Source: Saprospiraceae bacterium
GTDB taxonomy: Bacteria; Bacteroidota; Bacteroidia; Chitinophagales; Saprospiraceae
NCBI GenBank assembly: GCA_029262995.1
Contig: JAJCYH010000023.1
Location: forward strand, 248,001-312,000
DNA length: 64,000 nucleotides
Reading direction: 5' to 3'
Position 1 is the stretch's first letter; each line of letters opens with the position of its first letter. A program made the translations under genes and the position numbers. The notes beneath the pieces are model-generated. The model saw only the letters and a list, made by a program, of their open reading frames with translations, did no database searches and was not told the origin of the DNA. Below are positions 4,091-57,633 of this stretch, in pieces.

Positions 4091-4133
4091 AGTTTCTTTG
4101 CCATCAAATTTATAGAACCTAAAAAATAGATTT

Positions 4134-5717
4134 ATGAGCCTAAATTTAAAACAATATAGCGTAGAAGTAAAGGAGGTTTATCATAATTCCAGTAAATCTC
4201 TGTTATATGAATTGGCATTGTCCACTGAAAAAGGAACTGCAATTTCAGACGTTGGAGCTCTACTGGTGTATTCTGGTGAAAAAACAGGTAGAAGCCCAAA
4301 AGACAAGCGTATTGTAAGAAATGAGGCATCAGAAAATAACATTGATTGGGGTGATGTTAATATTGACCTTGATGAAAAGGTTTTTATGATCAATAGAGAA
4401 CGTTCCATTGATTTTTTGAATACAAGAGATCGCATATACGTTGTTGATGCATTTGCAGGCTGGGATCCTACTTACAGACAAAAGATTAGAATTATATGTA
4501 CAAGAGCTTATCATGCCTTGTTTATGCAAAATATGTTGATCATGCCAACAGCTGAAGAGTTGACTAATTTTGGAGAACCTGACTATGTCATTTTCAATGG
4601 TGGTGGTTTTCCAGCTAATAGATTCACCTCAAAAATGACCTCAAAAACAAGTATCGATTTGAATTTGGAACAAAAGGAGATCGTAATACTTGGAACCGAG
4701 TATGCTGGTGAAATGAAAAAAGGGGTTTTTTCAGTTATGAATTACTTAATGCCCCTTCAAGACGTACTTCCAATGCATTGCTCCGCTAATGTTGGTAAAG
4801 AAGGAGATGTATCTGTTCTATTTGGTCTTTCAGGAACTGGTAAAACAACTTTAAGTGCGGACCCTAACAGAAAATTAATCGGTGATGATGAACATTGCTG
4901 GACAGATACGGGTGTCTTTAATATAGAAGGTGGCTGTTATGCAAAAGCCATCGATTTATCTGAAGAAAAAGAGCCAGATATCTATAAGGCTATTCGATTT
5001 GGTACTGTATTGGAAAATGTCGTTTATGATAAAGTTTCCAGAAAAGTAGATTACAGTGATACATCAATTACTGAAAATACAAGAGCATCATATCCAATCC
5101 ATTTCATTGAAAATATACAAATGCCATGCGTTGCTGGTCATCCCAATCATGTTATCTTTTTAACCTGTGATGCTTTTGGTGTCTTGCCACCTGTGAGCCA
5201 ATTATCACCAGATCAAGCCAGCTATCATTTCATTTCAGGATACACCGCTAAAGTTGCAGGTACAGAAATGGGTGTAACTGAACCTTCAGCAACTTTCAGC
5301 GCTTGCTTTGGTGCAGCATTTATGATGTGGCACCCAAATAAATATGCAGAACTTTTAGCTCAAAAAATAAAATCTCATAATGCAAAGGCATGGTTGGTTA
5401 ACACAGGGTGGACAGGCGGAGCTTACGGTGTTGGATCAAGAATCAAACTAGCTTATACGAGAGCAATTATTTACGCTATTCAAAACGGTTCATTAGAGAA
5501 TGAGGTTATGATCAAAGACGATGCTTTTGGATTTATGATTCCACAATCGTGTCACGGTGTACCAACAGTATTAATGAATCCAGAAAATACTTGGAAAGAG
5601 AATTCTGAATACCAAAAAACGAGAAACAAACTTGTAGACTTGTTTAACAACAATTTCAAAGCATTTGAATCCAACGTCAATTCAAATATTGTAGTCGCTG
5701 GACCAAAAAGAATCTAA
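4134..5717 (+). CDS. pckA: phosphoenolpyruvate carboxykinase (ATP)
   Basis: This enzyme converts oxaloacetate and ATP to phosphoenolpyruvate and CO2, the entry step of gluconeogenesis, in the cytosol. The 527-residue length is typical. Diagnostic segments are GEKTGRSPKDKRIV near the N-terminus, the PEPCK P-loop FGLSGTGKTTLSADP, the following LIGDDEHCW metal-binding segment, EGGCYAKAIDL, ENTRASYPIHFI, and the C-terminal WLVNTGWTGGAYGVGSRI. All active-site segments look intact. The gene stands alone on the plus strand, behind a conspicuous palindrome at 4056-4090 that may govern it. Confidence 0.97.
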   Translation: MSLNLKQYSVEVKEVYHNSSKSLLYELALSTEKGTAISDVGALLVYSGEKTGRSPKDKRIVRNEASENNIDWGDVNIDLDEKVFMINRERSIDFLNTRDRIYVVDAFAGWDPTYRQKIRIICTRAYHALFMQNMLIMPTAEELTNFGEPDYVIFNGGGFPANRFTSKMTSKTSIDLNLEQKEIVILGTEYAGEMKKGVFSVMNYLMPLQDVLPMHCSANVGKEGDVSVLFGLSGTGKTTLSADPNRKLIGDDEHCWTDTGVFNIEGGCYAKAIDLSEEKEPDIYKAIRFGTVLENVVYDKVSRKVDYSDTSITENTRASYPIHFIENIQMPCVAGHPNHVIFLTCDAFGVLPPVSQLSPDQASYHFISGYTAKVAGTEMGVTEPSATFSACFGAAFMMWHPNKYAELLAQKIKSHNAKAWLVNTGWTGGAYGVGSRIKLAYTRAIIYAIQNGSLENEVMIKDDAFGFMIPQSCHGVPTVLMNPENTWKENSEYQKTRNKLVDLFNNNFKAFESNVNSNIVVAGPKRI

Positions 5718-5740
5718 GACAACAGGAGAACGTAAATTTC

Positions 5741-6361
5741 CTAATCAGTAACTCTGAGAGAGACTGGATCAATAACGATAGGATTAAATTCACCAATTCG
5801 AATTTCAATATCAGAGAATAAGATCTTGTCTTTCTCTTTTACTCTAAGCAGTAAATTAGATATTTCAGTATTGAATTTGTCTCTCATATTTAATCTCTTC
5901 ACTGGCTCCTTGTCATTACTAGAATGTTCAAACTTGAATGTTTCAATTTTCATTGATTCTTTAAAGTCTGGATTATTGCACTCCAATCTTAATGACTTAT
6001 AGGCTAGCAATTCTGAAATCGATATGTATCCAGAATCATATAGCCCGATCCTAGCAGATATGTGAGGCAATTCAACGACATAATAATTGAATGTTCTAAC
6101 GATGTTTGACTCTTCATCTCTAAGTTTAAAACTTTGTTTGCCCAGTTTATTGAAATGCAAAGTTACTACGCAAGGCTTTTTCTTGTTTTCGATGGTAATC
6201 ATTGAATCATCAAACAGGAATTTGTTACATTTCAAGCCTGAATCTGAAAGATCAATATCAATACTTAATCCATTATAAGCCTTTTTGTATTCATCTTGAC
6301 CGTATACTTCTGAACTTATTAAAAGCAACGCAAATAAAACAACACCAATTATATTCTTCAT
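5741..6361 (-). CDS. small secreted protein resembling the GldM C-terminal domain
   Basis: A 206-residue protein with a Sec signal peptide (MKNIIGVVLFALLLISSEVYG then QDEY). The mature region has beta-rich spacing and the order expected of GldM C-terminal domains: a YYVVELPHISARIG strand, a GYISISELLAYKSLRLECNN segment, a KIETFKFEH strand, then KEKDKILFSDIEIRIGE and a closing DPVSLRVTD. GldM is the periplasmic shaft of the type IX secretion and gliding motor, but this protein lacks its TM helix and first domains, so it is not GldM itself. The gene starts 6 bp before the pntB stop and follows it on the same strand. The domain match is from memory and only moderately certain. Confidence 0.5.
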   Translation of the reverse strand: MKNIIGVVLFALLLISSEVYGQDEYKKAYNGLSIDIDLSDSGLKCNKFLFDDSMITIENKKKPCVVTLHFNKLGKQSFKLRDEESNIVRTFNYYVVELPHISARIGLYDSGYISISELLAYKSLRLECNNPDFKESMKIETFKFEHSSNDKEPVKRLNMRDKFNTEISNLLLRVKEKDKILFSDIEIRIGEFNPIVIDPVSLRVTD

Positions 6362-6367
6362 ATCAAA

Positions 6368-7762
6368 CTACTTTTTAATAAACTGATTTATCTTATCAAC
6401 GGAATCTTTAGCGTCTCCGTATAACATAAAAGTATTTTCTTTATAAAAAAGAGGGTTTTGCACACCAGCATACCCTGTAGCCATTGAACGTTTCATTACT
6501 ACAACTTGTGCAGATTTCCAAACTTCTAAAACCGGCATACCATAAATTGGACTTGATGCGTCCTCTTGAGCACCTGGATTTACAATGTCATTAGCACCAA
6601 TCACAAGTACAACATCAGTTTCAGGCAAATCATCATTGATTTCATCCATCTCTAAAACAATATCATAAGGTACATTTGCTTCAGCCAACAAAACATTCAT
6701 ATGTCCTGGTAACCTTCCAGCTACTGGGTGAATTCCAAATCTTACATTCTTTCCTGCTTTACGCAAAACTTCAAGCATTTCAAATACTGGATATTGTGCC
6801 TTTGCTACAGCCATACCGTAACCTGGAACAATTACTACAGATTCTGCGTTTTGCAACATTTCTGATACTTCTTCGTGATCCATTGAATTTACAGATCCTG
6901 AAATTTCCTCGCTTGATGACGATACTGTAGTTCCAAATCCACCAAATATTACTGACCAGAATGATCTATTCATAGCTTCGCACATTATAATAGACAATAT
7001 TGCCCCAGAACTACCTACCAACGCACCAGTCACAATCAAAAGATCATTGCCAAGCATAAATCCTGCTGCTGCTGCTGCCCATCCTGAATAAGAGTTTAGC
7101 ATAGAAACAACTACTGGCATGTCGGCACCACCAATCGCCATAACCAACATCACACCAATAAATAATGAAATTGCGGTCATGATGTATAAATACAATATTC
7201 CAGATGTCCCATCAGATTGTGTAAACAAAACGGCTAAAACAATGCAAATCAGTAATAAAACTAAATTTACAATATGTCTTCCTGGGTATAATAATGCTTT
7301 GCTTGTAATGGTGCCTTGCAACTTCCCCCATGCAACGATAGATCCAGTAAAGGTTATTGCCCCAATGAAAATACCTATATATACTTCTACATAATGTATG
7401 TTATGATCAACTCCAGTTAATGTTTGTGTGTGCGGATCCAAATAGGAACCAAAACCAACCAGCACTGCAGCCAACCCAACAAAGGAGTGAAGAATGGCAA
7501 CCAGTTGAGGCATAGAAGTCATCTCAACTTTTCTAGCTACAGTCATACCAATAACAGAAGCAATAGCAATAGCTACAATAATATAAACGTGGCCTTCTAC
7601 GTTATCTCCTAACACTGTAGAGGCAATTGCTATCACCATACCGATGATGCCGTACAATACACCTCGCTTAGCAGATTCCTGCGAGGAAAGACCACCAAGG
7701 CTTAATATAAAAAGGATGCTTGCAAATAAATATGATGCAAGCTGTATTTGTGATGATATCAT
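6368..7762 (-). CDS. pntB: NAD(P) transhydrogenase subunit beta
   Basis: PntB forms the membrane and NADP(H)-binding half of the proton-translocating transhydrogenase, which makes NADPH from NADH using the proton gradient. The 464-residue protein has about eight to nine hydrophobic helices in residues 1-280 and then the soluble domain III. That domain shows [46 protein letters not shown] and the C-terminal [17 protein letters not shown], all characteristic NADP-site segments. It starts 4 bp downstream of the pntA stop, so the pair is one operon. Length and motifs are normal. Confidence 0.96.
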
Positions 7763-7766
7763 AGTT

Positions 7767-9299
7767 TTACTTTCTAAACATTTTTAACATTCGATGTGTC
7801 ACTAAAAATCCGCCGACAATATTTATACTTGCTACAAGTATTGCAATAAAAGCTAAAATGGTAAGAGGATCTGATAGGCTTGAACTGGTTTGTAATAGAC
7901 CACCAATTATAATGATACCACTAATAGCATTCGTGACAGCCATTAAAGGGGTATGTAATGAATGGGAAACATTCCAAATAACCTGCCATCCAACAAAAAC
8001 AGATAGTACGAAGACAGTGAAATGTCCCATAAAGTCTGATGGCGCAACCATGCCTAAGAGGTACAATAGTGCAGCAATAAATACCAAACTAATTGCTGTA
8101 CTTCTAGACTTTTTCTTATTATCGCTTATTTCCTTCTCTTTTAGGTCTATCGTTTCAATGGGTTTCACTTTTGGAGTAGACCTTACCGGTAATGGCTCAG
8201 GTGGCCAATTAACCTTTCCATTGTAGGTAACCATAGCTCTCTTAACAACATCGTCATCCATGTTGATATTAAAACCTTCTGCTTTACCCATATCATCAAG
8301 TAAATGACAGAGATTGTTACCATACAATTGACTGGCTTGAGAAGGCAATTGATCCAATTTACCTATTATTGTTACCCCGTTTTCTGTAGTGTAAATTTCA
8401 TTGTTTCTTGTAAGTACACAATTGCCTCCACTTGAGGCAGCAAGATCAACGATTATAGAGCCTGGTTTCATAACCGCAACATGATCTTCAAGAACCAATT
8501 TAGGAGCTTCTCTTCCAGGAATTTGAGCTGTAGTAATTATTATATCGACTTCTCTTGCTTGCTCTTTGAATAACGCCATTTCCGCATCTATGAAAGCCTG
8601 ACTCATCACTTTTGAATATCCTGAATCTGTCGCTCCATCCTCATCAATTTCTACTTCCAAAAACTGAGCTCCCATTGACAGAATCTGCTCTTCAACTTCT
8701 TTTCGAGTATCGAAGGCTCTTACTATTGCACCTAAAGACTTGGCGGTACCAATTGCGGCCAAACCTGCAACACCTGCGCCTATAACGAGAACTTTTGCAG
8801 GATCGACTTTTCCTGCCGCCGTGATCTGACCATTTAAGAATCTGCCAAAGTGATTTGCTGCTTCGATTACGGACCTATAGCCTGCTATATTTGCCATGGA
8901 AGACAATACATCCATTTTTTGTGCACGTGAAATTCTTGGAATTGTATCCATAGCGACAGCATTTACGCCTTTGTCTGCTAATAATTGCAATAGTTCCAAA
9001 TTCTGAGCTGGATTCAAATAACTTAGACTTACTTGTCCAGAATGCATTAGATCTATTTCTTCGGGTCTTACAGCTTGAACTTTTAATATAATATCAGAAT
9101 CAGAATATAGGATTTCTGCATTCTCAACTATAGAGGCTCCAGAATTAACATATTCTTCATTTGAAAATCTGGCATTTTGTCCGGCTGAATCCTGAACCAA
9201 CACTTCGAAGCCTTGTTTTCTTAGGCGCTTTACAGTTTTGGGTGTTGCCCCTACTCTGAATTCTCCAGAAACGACTTCTTTAGGAATACCTACTTTCAT
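7767..9299 (-). CDS. pntA: NAD(P) transhydrogenase subunit alpha (fused alpha1-alpha2)
   Basis: A 510-residue PntA. Residues about 1-375 are the NAD(H)-binding domain I, with [20 protein letters not shown] at the start, [23 protein letters not shown] as the dinucleotide fold and [11 protein letters not shown]. Residues about 395-510 hold the alpha2 membrane part with four hydrophobic helices. Alpha1 and alpha2 are one polypeptide, as in the E. coli form, rather than split. It is followed by pntB after 4 bp. The neighbouring divergent ferredoxin-linked oxidoreductase operon suggests a local grouping of redox-balancing functions. A candidate -7 box lies at 9330-9337. Confidence 0.96.
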
Positions 9300-26386: not shown

Positions 26387-29300
26387 TTAATACTTTTGAA
26401 TTAGAAGTCTTTTAACAATCAGGTCTTTTTCTGTTTTAAGCTGAATTAAATACAAGCCACTAAGATACTTAGCATCTGTAATATCTAATTCGACAAATCT
26501 CTTATCAGCACTTAATGGTTGGGTATATACTCTTTTTCCATTAAGGTCAGAAATTCTTAATTCAGCATCAGTGTTTAAGCCATCAATATTTATCCTAACT
26601 CTGTCATAAGCAGGATTAGGAATAACCAACATATCGATTACATCCGATTGCGAACGCAATTCAAATTGAGGATCGATTCCGAAGCCATATTCATTTCCAG
26701 AGCGGTCAATACCAGATGGCATACAATTCTCAGGAACAAATGGAACTGTCAAAGTTGTTGAACAGAGCGATCCCGCTTGAAAATCTTCAGAATACCATGT
26801 TATATCACTAGGAATATCGTTAATGTCGTATGAGTTTTCTGGCACAAACAATACTGGAGTAGCAGAATTATACAACCATTCTCCATAAGTAATAATACTT
26901 GGTTCGAATGCTATACCACTGGCATCGGGACCATCAAACATGTCTAATGGCCTCGCTGGATTTGCTAAATTCGCAGCTTCTGGCGAACCATCAGCTTCGT
27001 CAAACTTATAATAAGCGATCAAATTACCTTCAGTACCATCAAGTTGACTGGTCATATTACATAGCACTTCATCAGAAGTAAGCGCTCTATCCCAAATTTT
27101 TAGTTCATCAACTTTACCATCAAAGGTTTCAGGAAAACCTGGATCCAAAACAAACTGCTGACCAACGATTAAACCATTGGTTGCGTTTTGACTCATATTG
27201 CCTATAGTTGACCCTTTACTACTTGCAAGTACTCCATCGATATAAAGATGAGTATTGTTATTTTCCACATCTTTAACAACAGTATAATGATGCCACTGTA
27301 AATCTGTATTCCAAATGACTCCGGTAGCCCAGCTGTCTCCTACTCTGATTTCATATGCAGTAGGATTTTGTGCATTACCTGTACTTGGCGTATGTCCTAA
27401 ATAGAATTGACGACCGTGAGAAATAACTTCTGTATAACCAGTCTGGACTGCTAATTGTTTGGCCCATATTGATAATGTAAATGAAGCAGTACTTGGCAAT
27501 ATCAAATTGGGGTCCTGTGCATAATCATCATTTCCATCAATGACATAAGCATTACCTGAAGGTCCCCAGTTCTCTGCTATCGGTGGAACTGCCTCCGGAA
27601 TTTCTGTAGAACATTGGACAGTGCTGTATGACATAAAGAACGTATTACTAGGTGTAAATGACCCAGTAGGATCTCCTGCCTGAAAGGATGCCATATCCCA
27701 TGCATATACTGAATTAGCACTATTCTGAATAATTCTTAATGTATAATTACTTGCATCGGTTAAAAAGACTCCATCTCCACTATAATCAATAACATCTCCG
27801 TTATTGAAAACAGGAACATTTTTACTTAGAATTAAATTAGCTGCATTTATTCCCACACCATCATATAGTTCAAATGTCATATCTGAAGAACCTCCAAAGG
27901 AGAAAATATCAGGATCAATGGTATATAAATCTCCCCCAGTGCTTACAACGAAAGATTGCCATGTAAAATTATTCTGTCCATTACCTGCATAAGTGCCATT
28001 TGTAGTTACATCCGTTGTAACGCCAATATTATTTACTGTAGATACACATCCAGAAAATCCTCCTATGGTACTACCATCTTCAACAGTGACAGTAAAAGAA
28101 CATAAACCTACATTACCTTCATCGTCAGTACTACTAAACGAATTTGTTGTAACACCAATTGAATAATTAGAACCACTACTTAGTCCTGTATTTTGAATTA
28201 CTATTGCAGGAGCTGTGCAATTATCAACCGCAGTTGGTGTAACATATGATACTGCAATTGACCCGCTACAAGTTTCAACAGTTATATCTGTAGGGCATGT
28301 CATTTCAGGAGCTTGATTATCTGTAACAGTAATATTAAAATTACAATCAATTGTATTTCCAGAATTGTCTTCTGCAGTCATTACAATATTATTAACTCCC
28401 AAATTAAATTCAGAACCTGAATTTTGACCTGATGTCGTTGTGACTGAAGATATTCCACAATTATCAAAACCATTTGCAGAATACAATACTTGCGCAGTAC
28501 ATTCTCCATTACGATTTCCAACAACAGTCATAATAAATGTACTGTTAAAAATAGAAGTAACAGAACCCGTTGGATCGCCAGCTTGAACTTCAGAACCTCT
28601 CCATACATAATTATTACTTTGACCTGGTCCAAACATTTCAAGTGTGTAAAATCCAGCTGTCAATATCAGGTCAGCATTACTAAAGTCAATAAATCCATTA
28701 CTATATGTCGGCAATAATTCAGTATATAATAGCGTACCAGTTGTACCTACTCCATCATAAACGCTTGCCTCCAATGGATCATTAACTGAACCACCAAATC
28801 TATCCAAGTCAGGGTAAATCTTACTTAAAGTAATTTCTTCCGTTACTTCAAACGATTGCCATTGACCATTAGAGGATACATGATCAGCTACATTGAAATA
28901 TATACCTGTTTGAATATCCATATCCCCTGCATTTCGAGTTTGGTTTCCAAAACATTGTATGCCTGGATTCTGCTGATCTTCAACAGTTATATTAAAGATA
29001 CAAGTATTAGAATTTCCGGTGTTATCTGCAGCATCATAAGAAACAACATAAGACCCAACTGACTGGCTAGAGCCAGAAGCAGGACCTGATATCAAAGCTG
29101 GTACAACTACATCACAATTATCTGTAGCGGTAGGTGCTGAATAATTAATAGTCGCAGCACATGTCCCGAATACTGTATTAATTGTTACATCTGATGGACA
29201 ACCACTAATTACTGGAGCTTCAGCATCATCAACGCTAATATCAAAGGTGCATTCACTAAAATTGTTGTTTGCATCAGTTGCACGTAAGGTAACTGTAGTT

Positions 29301-32300
29301 CCTCCTACTGGAAACAGACCACCACTTTCAACTCCTGTCGTTACTTCAATAAGTGGAATTCCACAGTAATTATCATTTACAATGATATCCATTGCATAAT
29401 CTACAATAGCTCCACATTGTCCAAGATCATTATTCAATCCAGAAATAATATCTGCAGGGCATTGTAAGGAAGGAGCATCAACATCACCAGATTGCAAGTC
29501 AATCGTAGATGCACAATAACCCTTATTTCCTGCAGTATCAGTTATCGTTAAAATAGACGAATTGTCTGGTCCAAATAATTTTATACTTCGTATTTCAATA
29601 TATGCTGAATTACCAAGAGATCCATCGTTCTTTGCATGAAATTTAACATATTGAGCTGGTACAGCATCAAAAGAAAGCTTTAAAGGTCCAGAAATTACAT
29701 CACTGTTTACAACAATTCCCGCTCCCACACTGCTATAAGGAAACAACTGTATCCATCCTGGATCATTATCTGTAGGTGGCGCACCTACTGCTGATGGATG
29801 ATACCAACCTTCTATTTCTGTAGTTTTACCGTCTGAAAATGTCATTTGAAATACAGATACATCACTGATTACTTCCTGAGCTCCAAGATCTATAAGAATA
29901 GATCCGTATGAAGTCCCTGGAGTTGGATTCACCCAAGTCGCTCCTGAGTTATGGTCAACTTTATAGCTGTTGTCAGGATCATTAGCAAACTGTGGTCCAT
30001 CACATAAAGTACCACGTGCTCGCCAGTCTTGCGCACACGTTGTCCCAAGATCATTATAAAAATTACTAGCTCCTGCATATCCAGTAATAGATATAACATC
30101 CGCTGCTCCTCCTGTAAATGGTCCATTGGTTAAGTTAACTGGTGTCTGTTCTAAGTCATCACAAACAAAATCTGTAACACTTAAACTGGAGGAACTTATT
30201 CCACAATTATCACTAGAACCGCTGTCAACCATTCCTGCCGTTATTGAAGCATCACCAACTGCATCCAACGCAACAACTAAATCTTGGCATTGAGCATCTG
30301 GAGTCTCTTGATCTTCCACGGTCACATTAAAGAAACATTCATCTTGTAATCCTGCAGAATCTGTAACCCTAATTCCAACACCTAATGTGCCTTCACTAAA
30401 TTCATTACCACTAGCTAATCCATCAATAACTTGTACGTTAGTTATTTCACAGTTATCTGTTCCAGAAGCGGAGTAAAACACTAATGCAGTACAGCCACCT
30501 AAGTCTGTAGCTACAGTCATATCAGCAGGGCAAACAGCCACAGGAGCAATATTATCAACAACCGTAACATTAGCTTCACAAGTTGCAGTATTTCCAACTA
30601 AGTCTCTTGCAACCAAGGTCACAACAGATACACCTAAGTCATTACAATCAAAATCCTGAAATTCATCTTCATTGGGGGTATCTCCAGTAACAGAAATATT
30701 ATCAACACCAAGATTAGTATCTGTACCATTTGTCTCAGCTCTAATCGTTAATAAGTGAGATGAAGAAGTTGCAACAAAATCAATATTCACATTGGTCCAA
30801 GTTAATCCTGGATTAGCCAATTCAGTGAGTATTACATTATCTATATCAACTGCAAAAGTCAGAGTACCTATTGGTGAAGAGAATAAAGTTGTATAGTTTT
30901 TGAAATCCATTGAAAAAGTATACGTATTTCCTGGTGTAAGCCCATTTATTACTTGTTCAATATATGGATCAGTTGATACCTCTCCTGCAGCATTTAATGC
31001 ATAGTAAGGTCCAGAGATTACATCTGTTGTTTTGATTCCTGAATTGTTATCATTACCAACAGAAGTCCAGTTTGTCAATGCACTATCAAAGCTTCCATTT
31101 TGTACAAATTCTCCTCCAATTCCATAACTTAGATTTAATATATCCAATCCACAATCATCACTTGATCCGTTATCTATGCTGGCAGCTGCTAATTGCACAT
31201 TACCAGTATTATCCAAATTAATTGTCACATCTTGACATACAGCTTCTGGCAATTCTGCATCTTCTACCGTAATATTAAAGCTGCATGTTGTTGAATTATT
31301 GGAAGCATCCGTAGCCTGATATTCTTGATTCGTTACACCAAGAGGAAAGAATGAGCCTGATGCTAAACCCCCTGTTTGGGTAGCAGTGGATGAACAATTA
31401 TCAAAAGATACTGGAATACCTGTTGTTAGTGTTGCACCGCATTGGCCGATATCTGCATTCACAGTTATATCGGAAGGACAATAGGAATATTCTACAGTAA
31501 GTACTCCCTGACTCACAATAAAAGTATGACCAAAATTGCATCTATGAGGTCTGAGTTTAAACACATGTGGTCCACCAGGAACAAATCCATCTATTAAACC
31601 AGAATAGTTTATTACGTCAGAATATAGAGAATAGTCTGTAACTCCAGTTGGTCTTGGCGTCTGGTCACTTCCTACTGCTGTGTTATTATAAGATAATATA
31701 AGGGTTGTTTTATTTCCCCAACCTTGATCACGTCCTGTATAATCTAAACTCACATTTGTAATATAAGCTCCTGCAGGAATTACAACATCAATATCAACAG
31801 GATTACTGCATAAGTTACTATTTGTCGGAGAATTATAAATAATTGTATTGCTCTCTGTAAATACGAGAGGCGCCTCATTATCTACTACTTCGACATTAAA
31901 TGAACATTCATCGGTATTGCCAGCGTTATCTGTAGCTCTGTAGATTACTGTATTTATTCCTATTGAGAATAAATCGCCACTTGCAGGTCCTGAAACTAAT
32001 TCTAAAGTAGGTTCAAAACAGTTATCTGATGCCTCTGCAATATAGGTATAAATGGCACCACATTGACCAGGGTCATTTGGAATGGCTGTAGTTACATCAG
32101 GAGGACAAATTGCTACAGGGACTTCGTTATCTTCAATTGTTACATCAAAACTACATTCTGCTGTATTTGTATTGCTGTCGGTAGCTCTTAAAGTCACATT
32201 TGTAGTACCAAAACCAAATCTAGATCCACTTGTCAATCCTGTAATAACTTGAACACCACCGATACCACAATTGTCAGAAGTAACAGCGGAATAACTAACT

Positions 32301-35300
32301 ACGGCATCACACAATCCTGGTTCTGCAGAAGCAATTATATTAGAAGGGCAGGTGATTTCTGGATTTTCATTATCAATAACAGATACAGTAAATATACAAT
32401 CTACGATACTATTGTTTTCATCCTTTGCTCTAAGAGTTACCTCTGTATCTCCAACGTTAAATGCATCTCCGCTTCCTGGCGTTTCAGAAATTACTTCTAT
32501 TGTTATAAGTCCACATCCTCCAGTTGGTTCAGCTGAGAAAAATGCAATTCCTGAACATGATTCTGGTGAAGTGTTTACTTGTATATCACTAGGGCATACC
32601 ATAGCTACAGGCGTATCACAAATTACTTCCAGGGTTCCATTAACTATTGTAATGATATAGTTAGGATCAGAAGCTGTCGCTACAATATCATAAAATCCAA
32701 CATCACCAGTATAAGCAATCACATCAAAAGTTATATCTAATTGGTCTCCTTGCACCAATGTATTTATATCGGCTACAAACTCTGGCAAAAGCTCCCCTTC
32801 AATAATAAATGTATCTCTAACAATAATTTGTATCGGTTTTGGATCAATCGATACTTTACCAGGATTATAAGTAACATCATAATTATCCGAGAAAAAAGTC
32901 CCAGGGACTATCCAATGACATCCTGCTTTATAACCTGTAAGTATATTAATAGATCTTATAGAATCTACTTCCGGCTGATCAGAAAGAATTACAATCGCCT
33001 CATCCAGAACATTTGTAGGTTGATTATCTTCTGAATCCACTAAAGCGACACCGTTAACTAAAGCTATTCCATCAGCCAATGCAACTGGTAATCCGTCTAC
33101 TAGAGCTAATCCATTTACTAAAGCAAATCCATCTACTAAAGCTATTCCGTCTACTACAGAAACACCATCAACTAATGCTAATCCATCTACTAAGGCTAAT
33201 CCATCTACTAAAGCTATTCCATCTACCAAGGCTAAAGCATCAACCAAGGCTGTTCCATCTACCAAGGCAACACCATCTACTAATGCTAAAGCATCCACTA
33301 AGGCAAGACCATTTACAAGGGCTGTTCCATCTACTAGTGCTAAAGCATTTGCTAAGGCGTCTTCACTAATTGATCCACTCTTATCTACTAATGCCAATCC
33401 ATCAACTAAGGCTAATCCATCAACCAAAGCGAATCCATCAACTAAGGCTAATCCATTGACCAAGGCAAGTGCATCAGTAATCTGGGCACCATCTACTAAA
33501 GCAAGTGCATCTACTAATGCCAAACCGTCTACCAATGCCAAGCCGTCGACAAGAGCAATGCCATCTACCAAAGCAAGGGCATCCGTTAAGTTTCCAATAC
33601 TAGCATCAACTAAGGCAAGGGCATTTACTAAGGCCGTCCCATCAACTAGTGCTAGTGCATCTACTAATGCCAAACCATCTACCAAGGCCAAGCCATTTAC
33701 ATATGCGGTCGCATCTACCAAGGCTGTTCCATCCAAGAATACATCTAATGCATCCACAAGTGCTACTCCATCAACTAAGGCTACCCCATCGACTAGCGCT
33801 AGAGCGTCAGTTAAATTATTTACTGTAGCATCTACCAATGCCAAGGCATCTACCAATGCTGTTCCATCCACCAAAGCCAAACCGTCTACAAGTGCCAAGC
33901 CATCTACAAGTGCTAAGGCATCCGTTAGGCTTGAACCATCAACTAAAGCTAAAGCATCTACCAATGCCGTCCCATCTACAAGGGCGAGACCATCTACAAG
34001 TGCCAAGGCATCGACTAAGGCTAATCCATCTACTAAGGCTAAGGCATCCACTAATGCAAGCGCATCTACAAGTGCTATACCATCCACCAAGGCCAAGCCA
34101 TCTACAAGTGCCAAGGCATCTGTCAAATTTCCAATAGATCCATCTACCAATGCCAACGCATTAACCAAGGCAGTTCCGTCTACTAAAGCAAAGCCATCTA
34201 CCAAAGCAATTCCATCTACATATGTCAATGCATCTAAAAGAGTTGATCCATCTACCAATGCTAACGCATCCACTAAGGCTACGCCGTTAACAAGAGCTAG
34301 TCCATCTACTAGTGCCAAGGCATCAACTAAGGCAAGGGCATCTACAAGAGCTATTGCATCAACTAAGGCTATACCATCTACTAGAGCCAAAGCATCTACC
34401 AACGCAAGTCCATCTACTAAAGCAATGCCATCAATGACGCCATATTGATCTACCAATGCCAAAGCATCCGTAATATTAGTAATATTTGAATCTACTAGTG
34501 CTAAGGCATCTACTAAGGCTATACCATCTACAAGTGCAATACCATCAGTTATAACCATACCATCTACAAGTGCTAGAGCATCTGTGAGGTTTGTAATATT
34601 TGAGTCAACTAAAGCCAAAGCATCAACTAGTGCCAAAGCATCAACCAGTGCCAAGCCGTCGACAAGTGCTAAGGCATCAGCTACAGAGACACCATCAACT
34701 AAGGCTAAGGCATTTCTCAATGCATCAACCAAGGCAAATCCATCTACTAAAGCAATACCATCTACTAAGGAGTTACTGTATAAAGAGTTTACTTCTGTTG
34801 TATTATCTACAGAGCCCCCAAAGTCATAATTAAAGCTAATTTGATTGCTTAGGATCTGATCTCCATAAACTATATTAATTGAATCAGGCGTAATTGATAA
34901 TGGCATTTTACCAATATCCAAAACACCACCGATTAGTCTAAAATCATAAAGAATCCTTATACTATCAGGTACAGAACCTAAGGATAATCCAACTCTATAT
35001 AAACCTGGAGGACTCGTTGTATTTGCTGTCGTATTATAATTAATATTTAAAGCATTCAAGCCTGAGCTTGCAAGTGTCACACCGCTTGGCAATCCTGAAA
35101 TTGATGCGGTAAATGTAGGATTATCTTCCCCATATTTTTTAGAATGTGCTTTACCTTTTATGGTTATAATTGTTTTGACAGGCTGAATAAATGCAAAGCC
35201 ATTTGAGTTACCTCCATCAATAGATGAAGAGGTAATTGGTGGGTTATACAGCGTTACAATCGTACTGTCCATTGGATCAAAAGTTGGGACAATAGCTGTG

Positions 35301-38300
35301 ACTGTTGTATCACCAACTACAGTTGTTTCTAACATTTGATTACCAAACATTACACATGTAGAATCAATAAGATACAATCCATTTATTGTTATCATAAATT
35401 CTTCTTCACCAATATTTGTTTCATCAATTCCTGCTGGCAATATATAGCTGCTCAGTTCTGGTGTTGGGTTTGCAAAAGTCTTCAAAGCTTCTTGTGGTTG
35501 AATAAAGCCAGCACCTGATTCAATATCATAGCCAGGTTCTCCCATATCTAGTGCCGTTGATTGCAACAGTGCTTTTGCCTGCAGTGGCGTAGTCGATTTA
35601 CTGAGAAATTTTTTCCTTCCCTCCATAATCAAAGCAATCGAACCAGATGCATGAGGTGCCGCTGCTGAAGTTCCAAAGAAATTAAAAAATTCATCACCAT
35701 CAATATTAGTACCTCCAAGGTCCACTGTTGTATTACCACCATTAGGAGCCATAATATCAGGCTTAGATCTTCCAATACCATCTATATTAAATCCTCCTCT
35801 TGAAGAAAAAGATGCAGCAGTTGGTATTTCCAAACCAAATTTTGGCGTATTGCTATACAATACAGCACCAACAGATATAACATTTTCTGCATTTGCTTGC
35901 CCTACAATTGTAGATCTGTCAGAAACAAATTCATTAAATGCAACTGAGCCTGCTCCTCTAAAAAAGATATATTTAAAATTTACTGGAATCACTGGCAATC
36001 CGTCACTATTGTTATAGACAACCATTATATTGGTAAAAGCGGTACTTCTCTTAACGGTAAAATCCACTATTTCTATAGGGTCAGTGCCTATATTATTAAA
36101 GTTTCTATTGTACCTAATAGTTCCATTATTATCAATAAGGTAGATATCCAAATCAATTGCAGCTCCAACTGGACCTAATTTTGTTGAAGAATAAAAATTA
36201 TCATCCCACTGTAACGACATAGTGTATTTTCCTGGCTCCAACTGAATAGCTTGCATTACATCGCCTCCTCCATAATTATGTGCCATACCAGGAATACCAA
36301 ATGGCGCTGGAACTGGATTAAATGTACCACTGTAGGTGTTTTCTCCATAATTTCCAGCTGCAGTAACATATGTTACACCTTTAGCTACAACCTGCTCCGC
36401 TGCTTTGGCAACAATACCGTCTTCAAAAAAGGGTTCTGTGATATAAGTTATATCATCACAAACTATATCACAATTTCCTTTTAAATCGTCCGCCAAATCT
36501 AATATTGCTTGCGCAAAACCACCTGGACTAATAAATCCAGTCTTAAAAGCTAGTGCAGTCCCAGGTGCGACATCATGAATCAACTGTAGCATCGCTCTTC
36601 CTTCATCTGTAGCTCCAGGAATTCTACCTCCATCAAAAAGAACATGTACACCTACTTCTGGTAAATCACCATTTTGTATATCCAAGTCCGCTTTTCCTAG
36701 TGCATTATAACTGTCTGAAATAACTCCGATTTTGACACCTTCACCAGACAAATCATAACCATTTCTAACAAAGTCAGATCGCTGTGCTTTATCACCTTGC
36801 GTAGTTGTTAAGCCTTTATCTAAAATAGGTCTGAAAACTGGTCTGGCAAATTGAACGCAAGCATTAGCACCAAATCCAAGTGCATTTAATTCATCTAGAC
36901 TTTCAATTGGTAAAAACCCTGACACTCTATTCTGATATTGCGAAGTAGACACAAGTCCAATAGCTTCTAAAGCTGCAAGTGCTGCAGCATACTTTGAAGG
37001 AATTATTATTACCTCTATCAATACAGTAACTGTATTGACATTATTTACTGTATTGATTTCTAATGTGTAAACATTGTCTGAAACAATGTTACTTGGATTA
37101 GGCTCTGGATCAGCAACAAAAATTGATGTCAACTCTGATCCAATAATATTACCGACCTGATTCGGTATGATGTTTCCAGGAATCAAATCGTAACTTGGAA
37201 CGATGTTCCCTGGTACTTCAACGTCTAATTTCCAGGTCACATATTTATCTGAATTAAACTCTTCTGCGATGAACTGACCTTCCATAACGGTCGGTTTGTC
37301 AGCACTTTTGCCTTTTACATCAATCTTTCCATCTCTTGCGTCAATCAAGCCCTTGAAATACCCTTCTTCCTTTATCTTAACATCTCCTTCAATCAAGTAG
37401 CAAATTATACTTTCTTGCTTGTCATTATTGAAAAACACTTTCTTCCCAATGTCGAATTTTTTCTTTATTATCAGAACAGTTGGCTGTGCAAAAAGAATAT
37501 AAATCTCCTTGTTGTTACTTGCTGTCTTTATATCAAATTCTTCAATATATACAGTATCCTGACCAGAAAAAAGAACAGTATTATCTTTTTCTATTATAAG
37601 TTTCTTATAATCTGAACCCTCAATTAATGTGGTATCAGGCTGTCCTTCTAAAATTGTTAAATCAGGTCTATTGCTTGCTTGTACATAAGGTGGAACTGTG
37701 CCTTCTGCAACTGGTGCAGGGCTAACAATTTTTGCAAAATCTCCTTCATTATCTGAATCTATTTCATCAGCTCTAGCAAAACTGCTTATTTCTGAATCAT
37801 CATCAATTTTAATTTCTTCATCACTTAACCAAACACCAATACCTCCAGAAAGTACCGTTGTCTTTTTGAGATCAATCTTTTTTGCGGCAAGCATAACATA
37901 TTTAAAAGCATCATCTGCTTCTAAAGAGTCTATTAATTCTTGTTGAGTCGGACCATCATAACAAGAGGTGGCATAGGATCCATCTATTTTTATTTTTCCA
38001 GAACCATCATCAGAAATTTCTAAAGTTTGCTCCCCTGCATCAACTACATCAATACAAATTTCTTGAAGAGTATAACTATTTTCTCCAGATGGGTTATCTA
38101 TTGTAGTATCTTCTCCGTTTAAATCAAATTTAACTTTACCATTGGCATTATTAAATCCCAGAGTTACGCAAATTTGTTCTCCTGGTTCAACAGATGCATA
38201 GGTTAGTATAACATAGTCAGAATTATCGATCTGACCAGTGAGGATGCCATCGGCTAAGCCCCCTGCATTAGCTCCATTGCTAACGCCATCACTAGAATCA

Positions 38301-38407
38301 TAGACTCCATCAACGCTTGGGCACTGTGAATACAAATGTGGTTGAAAGGCAAAGCCTAACAGAATAAATAAACTAAGTTGGTAAAATTTCAAATTGAGAT
38401 TTCGCAT
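26387..38407 (-). CDS. giant secreted multidomain protein: protease, MBG, ALVDG repeats, HYR, LamG, T9SS tail
   Basis: A 4006-residue protein. It has a signal peptide (1-27, ending LYSQ) and a secreted N-terminal region to about 540. A subtilase/sedolisin-like domain spans about 550-1010: Asp565 in GVISDS, Glu602 in TDEGRAMLQLIHDVAP, Ser914 in FFGTSAAAPHASG. An IPT-like segment follows, then MBG modules from about 1079. Residues about 1212-1791 hold roughly 95 ALVDG-type hexads placed inside an MBG domain. About ten HYR-like modules run from about 1930 to 3400 (CPSDI ... RATDN.GN..C.F.V.V.D). A LamG domain lies at about 3616-3790 and a T9SS type A sorting domain at about 3930-4006 (IPNPAYDRVRINI). 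It is probably exported across the outer membrane as a surface adhesin or matrix protein. The gene is monocistronic. Confidence 0.9.
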   Translation of the reverse strand: MRNLNLKFYQLSLFILLGFAFQPHLYSQCPSVDGVYDSSDGVSNGANAGGLADGILTGQIDNSDYVILTYASVEPGEQICVTLGFNNANGKVKFDLNGEDTTIDNPSGENSYTLQEICIDVVDAGEQTLEISDDGSGKIKIDGSYATSCYDGPTQQELIDSLEADDAFKYVMLAAKKIDLKKTTVLSGGIGVWLSDEEIKIDDDSEISSFARADEIDSDNEGDFAKIVSPAPVAEGTVPPYVQASNRPDLTILEGQPDTTLIEGSDYKKLIIEKDNTVLFSGQDTVYIEEFDIKTASNNKEIYILFAQPTVLIIKKKFDIGKKVFFNNDKQESIICYLIEGDVKIKEEGYFKGLIDARDGKIDVKGKSADKPTVMEGQFIAEEFNSDKYVTWKLDVEVPGNIVPSYDLIPGNIIPNQVGNIIGSELTSIFVADPEPNPSNIVSDNVYTLEINTVNNVNTVTVLIEVIIIPSKYAAALAALEAIGLVSTSQYQNRVSGFLPIESLDELNALGFGANACVQFARPVFRPILDKGLTTTQGDKAQRSDFVRNGYDLSGEGVKIGVISDSYNALGKADLDIQNGDLPEVGVHVLFDGGRIPGATDEGRAMLQLIHDVAPGTALAFKTGFISPGGFAQAILDLADDLKGNCDIVCDDITYITEPFFEDGIVAKAAEQVVAKGVTYVTAAGNYGENTYSGTFNPVPAPFGIPGMAHNYGGGDVMQAIQLEPGKYTMSLQWDDNFYSSTKLGPVGAAIDLDIYLIDNNGTIRYNRNFNNIGTDPIEIVDFTVKRSTAFTNIMVVYNNSDGLPVIPVNFKYIFFRGAGSVAFNEFVSDRSTIVGQANAENVISVGAVLYSNTPKFGLEIPTAASFSSRGGFNIDGIGRSKPDIMAPNGGNTTVDLGGTNIDGDEFFNFFGTSAAAPHASGSIALIMEGRKKFLSKSTTPLQAKALLQSTALDMGEPGYDIESGAGFIQPQEALKTFANPTPELSSYILPAGIDETNIGEEEFMITINGLYLIDSTCVMFGNQMLETTVVGDTTVTAIVPTFDPMDSTIVTLYNPPITSSSIDGGNSNGFAFIQPVKTIITIKGKAHSKKYGEDNPTFTASISGLPSGVTLASSGLNALNINYNTTANTTSPPGLYRVGLSLGSVPDSIRILYDFRLIGGVLDIGKMPLSITPDSINIVYGDQILSNQISFNYDFGGSVDNTTEVNSLYSNSLVDGIALVDGFALVDALRNALALVDGVSVADALALVDGLALVDALALVDALALVDSNITNLTDALALVDGMVITDGIALVDGIALVDALALVDSNITNITDALALVDQYGVIDGIALVDGLALVDALALVDGIALVDAIALVDALALVDALALVDGLALVNGVALVDALALVDGSTLLDALTYVDGIALVDGFALVDGTALVNALALVDGSIGNLTDALALVDGLALVDGIALVDALALVDALALVDGLALVDALALVDGLALVDGTALVDALALVDGSSLTDALALVDGLALVDGLALVDGTALVDALALVDATVNNLTDALALVDGVALVDGVALVDALDVFLDGTALVDATAYVNGLALVDGLALVDALALVDGTALVNALALVDASIGNLTDALALVDGIALVDGLALVDGLALVDALALVDGAQITDALALVNGLALVDGFALVDGLALVDGLALVDKSGSISEDALANALALVDGTALVNGLALVDALALVDGVALVDGTALVDALALVDGIALVDGLALVDGLALVDGVSVVDGIALVDGFALVNGLALVDGLPVALADGIALVNGVALVDSEDNQPTNVLDEAIVILSDQPEVDSIRSINILTGYKAGCHWIVPGTFFSDNYDVTYNPGKVSIDPKPIQIIVRDTFIIEGELLPEFVADINTLVQGDQLDITFDVIAYTGDVGFYDIVATASDPNYIITIVNGTLEVICDTPVAMVCPSDIQVNTSPESCSGIAFFSAEPTGGCGLITIEVISETPGSGDAFNVGDTEVTLRAKDENNSIVDCIFTVSVIDNENPEITCPSNIIASAEPGLCDAVVSYSAVTSDNCGIGGVQVITGLTSGSRFGFGTTNVTLRATDSNTNTAECSFDVTIEDNEVPVAICPPDVTTAIPNDPGQCGAIYTYIAEASDNCFEPTLELVSGPASGDLFSIGINTVIYRATDNAGNTDECSFNVEVVDNEAPLVFTESNTIIYNSPTNSNLCSNPVDIDVVIPAGAYITNVSLDYTGRDQGWGNKTTLILSYNNTAVGSDQTPRPTGVTDYSLYSDVINYSGLIDGFVPGGPHVFKLRPHRCNFGHTFIVSQGVLTVEYSYCPSDITVNADIGQCGATLTTGIPVSFDNCSSTATQTGGLASGSFFPLGVTNQEYQATDASNNSTTCSFNITVEDAELPEAVCQDVTINLDNTGNVQLAAASIDNGSSDDCGLDILNLSYGIGGEFVQNGSFDSALTNWTSVGNDNNSGIKTTDVISGPYYALNAAGEVSTDPYIEQVINGLTPGNTYTFSMDFKNYTTLFSSPIGTLTFAVDIDNVILTELANPGLTWTNVNIDFVATSSSHLLTIRAETNGTDTNLGVDNISVTGDTPNEDEFQDFDCNDLGVSVVTLVARDLVGNTATCEANVTVVDNIAPVAVCPADMTVATDLGGCTALVFYSASGTDNCEITNVQVIDGLASGNEFSEGTLGVGIRVTDSAGLQDECFFNVTVEDQETPDAQCQDLVVALDAVGDASITAGMVDSGSSDNCGISSSSLSVTDFVCDDLEQTPVNLTNGPFTGGAADVISITGYAGASNFYNDLGTTCAQDWRARGTLCDGPQFANDPDNSYKVDHNSGATWVNPTPGTSYGSILIDLGAQEVISDVSVFQMTFSDGKTTEIEGWYHPSAVGAPPTDNDPGWIQLFPYSSVGAGIVVNSDVISGPLKLSFDAVPAQYVKFHAKNDGSLGNSAYIEIRSIKLFGPDNSSILTITDTAGNKGYCASTIDLQSGDVDAPSLQCPADIISGLNNDLGQCGAIVDYAMDIIVNDNYCGIPLIEVTTGVESGGLFPVGGTTVTLRATDANNNFSECTFDISVDDAEAPVISGCPSDVTINTVFGTCAATINYSAPTATDNCDVVVPALISGPASGSSQSVGSYVVSYDAADNTGNSNTCIFNITVEDQQNPGIQCFGNQTRNAGDMDIQTGIYFNVADHVSSNGQWQSFEVTEEITLSKIYPDLDRFGGSVNDPLEASVYDGVGTTGTLLYTELLPTYSNGFIDFSNADLILTAGFYTLEMFGPGQSNNYVWRGSEVQAGDPTGSVTSIFNSTFIMTVVGNRNGECTAQVLYSANGFDNCGISSVTTTSGQNSGSEFNLGVNNIVMTAEDNSGNTIDCNFNITVTDNQAPEMTCPTDITVETCSGSIAVSYVTPTAVDNCTAPAIVIQNTGLSSGSNYSIGVTTNSFSSTDDEGNVGLCSFTVTVEDGSTIGGFSGCVSTVNNIGVTTDVTTNGTYAGNGQNNFTWQSFVVSTGGDLYTIDPDIFSFGGSSDMTFELYDGVGINAANLILSKNVPVFNNGDVIDYSGDGVFLTDASNYTLRIIQNSANSVYAWDMASFQAGDPTGSFTPSNTFFMSYSTVQCSTEIPEAVPPIAENWGPSGNAYVIDGNDDYAQDPNLILPSTASFTLSIWAKQLAVQTGYTEVISHGRQFYLGHTPSTGNAQNPTAYEIRVGDSWATGVIWNTDLQWHHYTVVKDVENNNTHLYIDGVLASSKGSTIGNMSQNATNGLIVGQQFVLDPGFPETFDGKVDELKIWDRALTSDEVLCNMTSQLDGTEGNLIAYYKFDEADGSPEAANLANPARPLDMFDGPDASGIAFEPSIITYGEWLYNSATPVLFVPENSYDINDIPSDITWYSEDFQAGSLCSTTLTVPFVPENCMPSGIDRSGNEYGFGIDPQFELRSQSDVIDMLVIPNPAYDRVRINIDGLNTDAELRISDLNGKRVYTQPLSADKRFVELDITDAKYLSGLYLIQLKTEKDLIVKRLLIQKY
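33036..34773 (-). repeat. 18-bp coding tandem repeat encoding about 95 ALVDG-type hexapeptides
   Basis: About 1.74 kb of the giant gene encodes near-perfect hexads (L/I/F/V/T-A-L-V-D-G/A). They are broken at intervals by 8-residue units ending in N-L-T-D-A or N-I-T-D-A (NITNLTDA, SIGNLTDA, TVNNLTDA) and by a few degenerate hexads (VSVADA, STLLDA, LTYVDG, SGSISEDALANA). Neighbouring 18-bp units differ mainly at wobble positions, so the peptide is conserved more strictly than the DNA. The pattern V-D-G-L-A-L fits the [LIV]-[GAED]-x-x-[STAV]-x signature of left-handed beta-helices. Other-strand open frames across it are shadows of the repeat. Confidence 0.95.
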
Positions 38408-38752: not shown

Positions 38753-40693
38753 ATGAAGTTCAATACCCGTACAATTTGTCTTCTTCTACTATGTTTTATA
38801 TCAACACAAGTGTCGGCCCAAGTAGACAGTTTGTTAAATATAATAAACTCTGAAGAATCAGATACCACTAAAATAGACGCATTTAATGCAATTAGTAGCT
38901 CTTATTTAGGCTCAAACCCTGACACATCTATTTATTACGCTTCTCAAGCAAGCGATCTATCAAAGCAAACAAAAGATTATATCAGATTAGGCACATCTTT
39001 AAAGAATGTTGGATTGGGATATTACTACAAAGCTGATTTTGTAAGAGTCTTAGAATATTGGGAAGAATCGCTAAAGGCCTTTGAAGATGCAAACGATCCT
39101 AAAGGTGTTAGTAACCTATTAAGCAATATTGGAGCCGTATATTATTCTACAGGTGATAATACCAAGGCTATCGACTATTATTTAAGATCACTTCGAATTG
39201 CGGAGGAAGCTGGTGAAGATTTTAGGGTTGCCACCGTTTTGCAAAACATAGGTGCCGTTTATGAATCCACCAAAGAATTTGATAAGGCAGAATCTTATCT
39301 TATTCAGGCACTAGAAATATGCAAAGTATTGGAGTATGATAAAGGTATTGGGACCAGTGCTTTGAATCTCGGTGACATCTACATGCAAATGGAGGAGTAT
39401 GATGTTGCTGAGAATTATTTAAATATGGCTACAGAGTATTTTACAAAAACCAATGACAATTACCTCGCTACTCCAAAAATAATGATTGGTAAAATAGAAA
39501 CCGAACGAGGCAATTACGCATTAGCACTTAAATCTTTAGACGAAGCCAAAAAAATAGCTATAGATAAAGAAACAAATCTTGCTTTAGCTCTAGCACATAA
39601 TGCAACAGGAGATGTTTATTTAAAAATGAACAATCCTGAAAAAGCCATTTATGCCTATAATCAAGCCCATAAAATAGGAAAAGAAATAGGAATTACTGAA
39701 GACTTAAAGGAGACTTACACAGGTTTAACCAATGCCTATAAAATGAAAGGTGATTTTATGAATGCAACTAGATTTCAAGACAGTCTGATCTATGCAACAA
39801 TCGCCATTTATAATCTTGAAAAGAACAATCAAATTGAAAACCTACAACTACAATTTGACATCGAAAGAAAAGAAGGCGACAATGTTAAACTTAAAGCCAA
39901 TAATCAATTAATGACTGAGCAAATAGCTAGAGCAAAACTATTTAGAAATTTCTTAATGGCAATTGCTGTTCTGCTTGTAGTCGTTGTGGGTGGTGTCGCC
40001 TATCAATACAACTATGCAAGAAAAACCAATCTTATAATAACTGAGGAGAGGAATAAGTCGGACAAACTGCTACTCAATATCCTTCCAGAAGAAACTGCCG
40101 ACGAGTTAAAAAATAATGGTCTCGTAAAAGCCCAAAAATATGATAATGCAACAGTATTATTTACTGACTTTGTAAATTTTACAGGTACCGCAGGAAATAT
40201 GCCCCCGGAAGATCTTGTCAAAACTATTGATTACTACTTCAGGAATTTTGATGATATCATAAAAAAATATAATTTGGAAAAAATTAAAACCATTGGTGAT
40301 GCCTATATGTGTGCTGGAGGCATTCCCAAAAAGGACGAAAATAACCTACATAACGCATTGAATGCCGCTGCTGAAATCGTACACTTTGTGAGTAAGACTT
40401 ACCAAAACCCTCCTGAAGGTATCAAAGCTTTTCAGATTAGAATTGGCCTCAATAACGGTCCAATAGTAGCAGGAGTTGTCGGTAGCTCTAAATTCCAATA
40501 TGATATTTGGGGGGATACAGTAAATATTGCCTCAAGAATGGAAAGCAATAGTCTAGCCAATCAAATTAATGTTTCAGAAAGTGTTTATGAAGACATGAAA
40601 GAACACTACGAATTTGAATTTCGAGGAGAACTAGATGTTAAAAATAAAGGCAAAATGAAGATGTATTTCTTTAAACCAGAACTATTAAATTAA
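38753..40693 (+). CDS. TPR-containing class III adenylate cyclase
   Basis: A 646-residue protein with a signal peptide (ending VSAQV), five to seven TPR-like units (residues about 60-350, e.g. AIDYYLRSLRIAEEAGEDF), a TM helix (FLMAIAVLLVVVVGGVAYQY, about 403-422), a short coiled linker and a class III cyclase domain (about 440-646). The metal ligands are Asp472 (VLFTDFVNF) and Asp516 (IGDAYM). The specificity residues are Lys512 and Asp584 (KTIGD; YDIWGD), the pair found in adenylate cyclases. Asn591 and Arg595 (TVNIASR) are the transition-state residues. All needed residues are present, so it should make cAMP from ATP in response to a periplasmic TPR-bound signal. Confidence 0.9.
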   Translation: MKFNTRTICLLLLCFISTQVSAQVDSLLNIINSEESDTTKIDAFNAISSSYLGSNPDTSIYYASQASDLSKQTKDYIRLGTSLKNVGLGYYYKADFVRVLEYWEESLKAFEDANDPKGVSNLLSNIGAVYYSTGDNTKAIDYYLRSLRIAEEAGEDFRVATVLQNIGAVYESTKEFDKAESYLIQALEICKVLEYDKGIGTSALNLGDIYMQMEEYDVAENYLNMATEYFTKTNDNYLATPKIMIGKIETERGNYALALKSLDEAKKIAIDKETNLALALAHNATGDVYLKMNNPEKAIYAYNQAHKIGKEIGITEDLKETYTGLTNAYKMKGDFMNATRFQDSLIYATIAIYNLEKNNQIENLQLQFDIERKEGDNVKLKANNQLMTEQIARAKLFRNFLMAIAVLLVVVVGGVAYQYNYARKTNLIITEERNKSDKLLLNILPEETADELKNNGLVKAQKYDNATVLFTDFVNFTGTAGNMPPEDLVKTIDYYFRNFDDIIKKYNLEKIKTIGDAYMCAGGIPKKDENNLHNALNAAAEIVHFVSKTYQNPPEGIKAFQIRIGLNNGPIVAGVVGSSKFQYDIWGDTVNIASRMESNSLANQINVSESVYEDMKEHYEFEFRGELDVKNKGKMKMYFFKPELLN

Positions 40694-57145: not shown

Positions 57146-57181
57146 AATTCAGCTCAGAATTCAGCTCAGAATTCAGCTCAT
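57146..57181. repeat. three 12-bp tandem repeats next to a stop codon
   Basis: AATTCAGCTCAG is repeated three times, the last copy ending in AT. It overlaps the stop codon of the small barrel protein at 57181. Such short arrays can change length by slippage but this one does not enter the coding frame. It is probably neutral. Confidence 0.7.
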
Positions 57182-57633
57182 TAGAAAAAAGCAGAAATAC
57201 GTATTCCCAATGTAGGATCAGAAAAATCAGAGAATGGATATTCAAATACTGGCTCAAGAGATACTGTTTTACTTAGAAATATATTGTATCCTAAAGCAAA
57301 TGAAAATATTTTTCGATCATCTAATTGATAGCTTAAACCACCAAATAAATTTGATATGACATAGTACCTAGCTTCGAGTTCTAATGAACTATCTGATCCT
57401 TGACCAAAATCGACATACTGAAAATTGGCTCCTAGCATAAAATTATCCGCTACAAAGTATCCCATGCCAACTTGTAAAAGTTTTGGTAAATCGTCTGATA
57501 AAAATAAATTAAATCCACTTGATCCGTTCAGGTAAATTGTTCCAGAAGAAAAAGGAACTGAATCAACTTCATCCTGACTGAATAAATTAAAACTAGTAAA
57601 AAAAAGGAAGGAAAATAAGATTAAGTTTTTCAT
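57181..57633 (-). CDS. small outer-membrane barrel protein
   Basis: A 150-residue protein with a signal peptide (MKNLILFSFLFFTSFNLFSQ). Alternating strands follow (VGMGYFVADNFMLGANFQYV, ELEARYYVISNLFGGLSYQL, DRKIFSFALGYNIFLSK, VSLEPVFEYPF), ending LGIRISAFF with a terminal aromatic residue typical of outer-membrane barrels. It looks like an eight-strand barrel of the OmpW or OmpA-beta class, but no family is certain. Its stop borders a 12-bp repeat array. Confidence 0.68.
   Translation of the reverse strand: MKNLILFSFLFFTSFNLFSQDEVDSVPFSSGTIYLNGSSGFNLFLSDDLPKLLQVGMGYFVADNFMLGANFQYVDFGQGSDSSLELEARYYVISNLFGGLSYQLDDRKIFSFALGYNIFLSKTVSLEPVFEYPFSDFSDPTLGIRISAFF

Follow-up and report, generated by a model that had tools for sequence, protein, structure and literature searches.

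The ALVDG-type repeat array in the window, i.e., the whole stretch of 64,000 nucleotides analysed here, belongs to a predicted type IX-secreted, subtilase-bearing protein with three MBG domains and is taken as an insert in the second one. Such arrays recur at this position in relatives of the protein, the repeated words are lineage-specific, and the array peptide is under selection; as judged from the sequences, the insert is an old and well kept part of the family. The fold and function which we infer, as a tentative first choice, are those of a strand-and-turn insert, the ends of which would be held at MBG2 and the exposed chemistry of which would be set by the lineage.

The host ORF (Table 1) starts with a hydrophobic, signal-like N terminus (judged by eye), and the Pfam models found above their cut-offs are Peptidase_S8, MBG_2 (two stretches), HYR (nine), Laminin_G_3, and the type IX tail. 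The Por_Secre_tail domain at the C terminus scored 32.5 bits against a cut-off of 27, and TIGR04183 scored 32.4 against 23. The secretion tail, the MBG and HYR stretches, Laminin_G_3, and the subtilase-like region point to a putative large surface protein. Upstream lies a neighbouring divergent gene (window 38753-40693) coding for TPRs and an adenylate/guanylate cyclase domain, and further away a perfect 12-bp tandem repeat, AATTCAGCTCAG, is present in 2.9 copies at 57146-57180, directly before an ORF at 57181-57633.

Table 1. Coordinates of the host ORF and its features in the window.
Feature	Coordinates	Strand	Residues and remarks
Host ORF	26387..38407	-	4006 aa; subtilase-like region, MBG1, split MBG2, MBG3, 9 HYR, Laminin_G_3, type IX tail
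Subtilase-like region	35483..36775	-	~545-975, limits set by us; Pfam Peptidase_S8 match 827-967
MBG1	34898..35164	-	1082-1170; profile 1-89 of 89
MBG2, first part	34793..34897	-	1171-1205; based on the family alignment of the joined halves
Hexad array	33038..34771	-	1213-1790; 578 aa
Irregular element ALDVFLD	33731..33751	-	just past the array middle
Conserved interruption KSGSISEDALAN	33347..33382	-	within the array
MBG2, second part, and conserved junction	32831..32995	-	1805-1859
MBG3	32624..32830	-	1860-1928; profile 9-84 of 89
Laminin_G_3	27065..27538	-	3624-3781; Pfam
Por_Secre_tail (type IX secretion sorting domain)	26399..26623	-	3929-4003

Subtilases (family S8) employ an Asp-His-Ser triad. 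Among 14 proteins, consisting of that of the window and 13 relatives, the Ser motif is present in 13 and the Asp motif, as defined by a pattern of our own, in nine, and 12 carry a Glu within the motif DEGRAMLQ. This Glu stands at the position expected for the triad His (window ~36583-36607, residues 601-608; likewise in loci L041-L051). The region is missing from the ORF used in the two proteins without DEGRAMLQ, and the upstream ORF of locus L003 does carry the motif; the L003 homologue is broken into two ORFs (241-3252 and 3298-7950), perhaps by an assembly error. The Glu may take the place of the triad His, and the putative subtilase-like region would then either use a Glu-type triad or represent an inactive domain.

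MBG domains are Ig-like, and the assignment of the insert to one of them comes from a profile grown from MBG1 and run on the same 14 proteins. MBG1 was complete in all of them. MBG3 was near complete in nine, partial in three (L002, L043, and the window), represented by its start in L048, and without a match in L049. A weak match to the first part of an MBG domain follows MBG1 directly in nine proteins and a weak match to the second part directly precedes MBG3 in ten, both being present in five; the first part of MBG2 in the window protein itself gave no match with this profile. The profile scores stayed weak when the two parts were joined in single proteins. Joined over 13 proteins, the parts aligned across the full domain both with MBG1 (hhalign probability 87, columns 1-79 corresponding to 1-89 of MBG1) and with MBG3 (94.9), compared to probabilities of 30 and 57 for the parts taken separately, and the combined parts cover the MBG_2 profile. 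The host domain is the one known from MBG_2 proteins (PF18676), with MBG1 complete and MBG2 identifiable when its two parts are combined, but here arrays of 112-620 residues split MBG2. The links between the matched MBG2 parts and the array of the window are estimated at about 19 and 34 residues.

The repeated ALVDG-type hexads claimed in the preliminary description are real. The array lies within the range 33036-34773 given there, but this range is out of frame, since the in-frame ends are located two bases inside each limit. The estimate of about 95 hexapeptides in some 580 residues agrees with the length of 96 hexads, but the units recognised by pattern number 83 with a looser ALV[DN]-type definition and 71 with the strict one ([AS]L[VI][DN][GA]x). 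Pieces of exactly six residues occur 69 times, and the unit spacings also include 7, 8, 10, 12, and 14 residues; in the output of Tandem Repeats Finder, several arrays overlap inside 33089-34768, their periods being 18, 36, 54, 72, 90, and 114. Leu, Ala, and Val make up 60% and five residues 85% of the array, and the charged residues consist of 85 Asp and one each of Glu, Lys, and Arg, resulting in a net charge of -84. The irregular element ALDVFLD appears to be alignable with AL...L.G elements of L002, L003, L041, and L042 (homology judged by eye). Counterparts of the interruption KSGSISEDALAN were recognised by eye in all seven other long arrays examined (L002, L003, L041, L042, L043, L050, and L051) and in none of the six short arrays examined. 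On the plus strand, a 330-aa ORF with STKAKP repeats (33456-34448) is the antisense reading of the array and does not point to a gene.

As remarked earlier, adjacent units keep the peptide and differ at wobble positions, with a pS of 0.68 and a pN of 0.21; the values for all 3403 unit pairs of the window are 0.70 and 0.20, the pN being lowered by the choice of units by pattern. Codon identity between adjacent units is 0.44 compared to 0.43 after shuffling (z +0.7), and codon sharing above the shuffle (z >2.5) is seen in three of 34 arrays (L012, +5.3; L023, +3.8; L025, +3.0), the other 31 staying below. The omega values between related arrays range from 0.025 to 0.097 in seven pairs, which comprise four within one genus (four genomes), L016/L024 (two genes of one genome), and two using L008, and exclude the window array, which has no relative close enough. 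They are below those of every measured flank in six of these pairs and equal in L008/L009, with overlapping intervals in some pairs, e.g., L030/L031. Moreover, identity is higher in the array than in the flanks for each of 14 pairs. The respective values are 0.78 and 0.47 between the window and L003, and 0.62 and 0.43 between the window and L002. Shifted units can flatter array alignments, so gapless pairs weigh most, such as L015/L029, where 165 array residues align without gaps at 96% identity compared to 86% in the flanks. The low pN at saturated pS, the codon identity close to that of shuffled units, and the low omega in relatives bear out the earlier proposal of selection rather than fresh duplication: the array peptide is selected, not freshly copied.

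The words repeated differ between lineages. A set of 34 arrays, which excludes duplicates, fragments at contig ends, and loci poor in LV[DN] units (read separately), yields 22 consensus hexads, including GLALVD, GSALVN, GLSLVN, GIPLVN, TGALVN, SRALVN, ARAIVN, AKAIVN, and QKGLVN, and further loci sharing the junction repeat PRVITN, GRVVTS, AKVVTN, or GKRSVN. Words of other lengths are LSLAN with five residues (L091), GSRGIAN with seven (L068 and L077), and GKSIVISN with eight (L078), and the lag identity of these loci peaks at 5, 7, and 8, respectively. The residue closing the word is Asn or Asp in all 34 consensus hexads and Asn in the words of the three other lengths, as expected for a residue in a turn. 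Position x is taken as exposed, because it is occupied by Arg or Lys in 13 of the 34 consensus hexads; the share of its modal residue is 0.19 in L007 and 0.56 in the window array. In L027, all ten units read GLSVIN, with a pS of 0.79 between neighbours and one DNA-identical pair among seven. The net charge of the units extends from -80 (window) to +15 across the arrays. A conserved non-repeat segment resembling VDIAPQSIFNY is found mid-array in L061, L065, L070, L074, L076, L078, L047, L049, and L068, i.e., in nine of 11 loci searched, and may constitute the true core of the insert.

A scan of genome contigs retrieved two loci, both from Saprospiraceae: L002, containing the G903 locus from the window's own genus, and L003, containing the G094 locus from another genus. 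The window is assigned to this family on the basis of these loci. The genus mate L002 repeats GSALVN and L003 the GLALVD of the window, a mismatch between word and genus which suggests either transfer or hidden paralogues. The C-terminal junction was detected in four genomes among 60 relatives, all with arrays, and its occurrence is patchy, with two of 14 members of the window's genus. Raw searches with the array matched 17 of 298 genomes at the family level, 13 of 298 at the order level, and 4 of 395 at the phylum level. The matches in G098 and G244 were rejected as antisense readings of other repeats, that in G050 as a different array (VDTMMM), and those in G775 and G890 because the inspected ORF contained no array; the VDTMMM-type arrays of G050 (L011 and L035) show a D every six residues in two large ORFs of the same genome. 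A profile built from the array end together with the junction (A6) matched 19 of 395 class genomes and 14 of 298 family genomes, and a repeated word precedes the junction in all 43 loci fetched with it (sparse in L066, L067, and L069), although including the array end favours array-bearing loci and makes array-free ones harder to find. As judged by Pfam, 12 proteins of relatives all contain Peptidase_S8 and MBG_2, and ten of them the type IX tail, the exceptions being L048, which runs off its contig, and L051, where none was found; the accessory domains differ between them (HYR, LRR, Laminin_G_3, SprB, and FG-GAP).

The similar arrays in MBG proteins of other Bacteroidota, which the preliminary description had tentatively mentioned, were thus found by the genome searches and the junction loci, and its statement that the repeat has no named domain agrees with the absence of any Pfam or NCBIfam model at the cut-offs. 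The LED repeat (PF20854) resembles the arrays in sub-threshold matches of up to 27.2 bits, but its cut-off is 59 bits and the similarity is probably one of composition. The phage and plasmid collections gave no match for the array, nor did the viral contigs with the window array; a weak viral-contig locus obtained with the L002 array (L036, E 3e-5) was discarded, its ORFs looking unrelated. As judged from titles and listings, the open-access papers searched contain no description of the array.

Proteins with hexapeptides of the Hexapep or LpxA type form left-handed beta-helices, and the preliminary description had predicted such a fold for the array, i.e., a straight triangular rod of about 32 coils with V pointing inward at position i, A at i+4, and L outward. 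This prediction was not borne out, and we regard the rod as very unlikely. It is true that the window has a period of six, that V-D-G-x-A-L can be written in the Hexapep register, that 62 of 84 window units fit the signature [LIV]-[GAED]-x-x-[STAV]-x with V at i, and that Arg or Lys would be permitted at x. In 33 other arrays, however, the fit is limited to 119 of 826 units, mostly because i+1 is Asn there, and the signature is thus a trait of the window variant rather than of the family. Pfam searches with the array and with 19 fragments listed no Hexapep match up to E 10, the HMMER filters dropping most weak hits, and the best PDB sequence matches, to the repetitive protein 9e5c (E 0.0036) and to 2o6y (21 residues, E 0.026), are read as chance. 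The YdcK beta-solenoid repeat (PF18836; chain 2f9c) likewise gave two weak matches (E 1.4 by sequence, E 0.016 by Pfam in one of 19 fragments), but neither is significant. Words of five, seven, or eight residues occupying the same slot would change the inward side chains, which is disallowed in a solenoid of fixed geometry. Also against such a helix, the hexads between two conserved loops number 14 in the window, 16 in L003, 14 in L042, 14 (plus one residue) in L041, and 15 in L051 (by eye), and arrays of one genus differ by alignment gaps of 6 and 12 residues. The autocorrelation of 11 arrays combined shows nothing at lag 3 (highest value +1.49), but signals at lag 2 (A +3.22, D/N +3.05) and lag 1 (V +4.71, A +2.93), although position x of the window alone scores +1.9 (lag 3) and +3.9 (lag 4); if anything, this weakly favours a predicted two units per turn. 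Finally, an insert inside one small MBG domain would fit a straight 15-nm rod badly. AlphaFold2 did not reach confidence for or against the helix, with a mean pLDDT of 31.9 and scraps of helix for 693 residues as a single sequence and of 41.4 for 151 residues with a six-row alignment; the latter model shows, for some of the units, four-residue strands at xALV and turns at DG, and Foldseek found nothing at E ≤ 0.001 for the predicted structure. According to Pratt and co-workers, AlphaFold2 gives confident but unrealistic beta-solenoids for repeats (PMC11795689); no such model was produced for the window array.

The low values of both AlphaFold2 runs, the composition of five residues for 85% of the array, and the differences in word length and chemistry between lineages would also suit a disordered or elastic hydrophobic segment without a fixed fold, but we consider this unlikely, since the array is under stronger constraint than the neighbouring domains, the positions of the interruptions are conserved, and the hydrophobic content is atypical of disorder. 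Doubtful as well, if slightly less so, is a cross-beta, amyloid-like arrangement, for which the chorion-like model is the basis of comparison and in which strand words with Asn/Asp turns from different molecules would pair and thereby bind cells or matrix to each other. Adjacent Leu and Val are both strongly kept, so that both faces of the strand may be buried, and the content of Leu, Ala, and Val, the strand-turn pattern of the weak AlphaFold2 model, and the tolerance of other word lengths are consistent with it, but the net charge of the window array is hard to reconcile with such pairing, and the stable lengths (566 residues in L005 and 569 in L006) and interruptions resemble a defined fold. 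A functionless array recently expanded by neutral slippage can practically be dismissed: the words are indeed lineage-specific and three arrays share adjacent codons, but the great majority including the window do not, synonymous sites are saturated at a low pN, and the low omega between related arrays together with the near-shuffled codon identity contradicts it.

In the strand-and-turn reading which we prefer, the host would be a subtilase-bearing protein that is secreted and bound to the surface, and the array would leave its second MBG domain and enter it again. Each word would form a short beta strand (x-A-L-V in the window) followed by a tight Asn/Asp turn (D-G in the window), and the copies would stack or pair together with position x exposed. 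For an insert placed within the loop of a small domain, the two ends are expected to lie close to each other, and the insert would therefore be folded back or closed rather than a straight rod. In all six short arrays, the largest of the inner irregular segments is found near the middle (0.40-0.50 of the array length; tied in L046 with one at 0.19), but among eight long arrays it is mid-array only in L002 and lies at 0.67 in the window; L041, L042, and L051 contain a second irregular segment at 0.54-0.58. The lack of a largest mid-array segment in most long arrays counts against our reading, as do the low pLDDT, the weak single MBG2 parts, the non-uniform position x, the words of other lengths, and the choice of the omega pairs, which come from relatives of the window array and largely from one genus. 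The insert would serve as a rigid side arm, with the exposed chemistry, which is anionic in the window and cationic (Arg/Lys) or uncharged elsewhere, determining what the protein sticks to; an adhesive or spacing role of this kind is suggested by the domain company of the array.

A bolder extension, to which we assign a minor chance, is a word-switching insert, in which one fixed slot of a conserved surface protein would be filled with many copies of the lineage's own word, maintained by selection and not by copying. In its boldest form, like words would pair with like, within the insert or between cells, and the word would thus be a tag for recognition or self-adhesion, present in many copies and specific to the lineage, which would have to change as a block. 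Independently of this, the family offers natural near-perfect repeats of 112-620 residues with many different words at a fixed insertion point. It may serve as a test set for the folding needs of short words and for structure predictors, which are reported to mishandle repeats (PMC11795689), and also for how selection keeps repeats uniform once the DNA trace of copying is gone. If the words do pair with like, the arrays would represent a new kind of lineage-specific adhesion.
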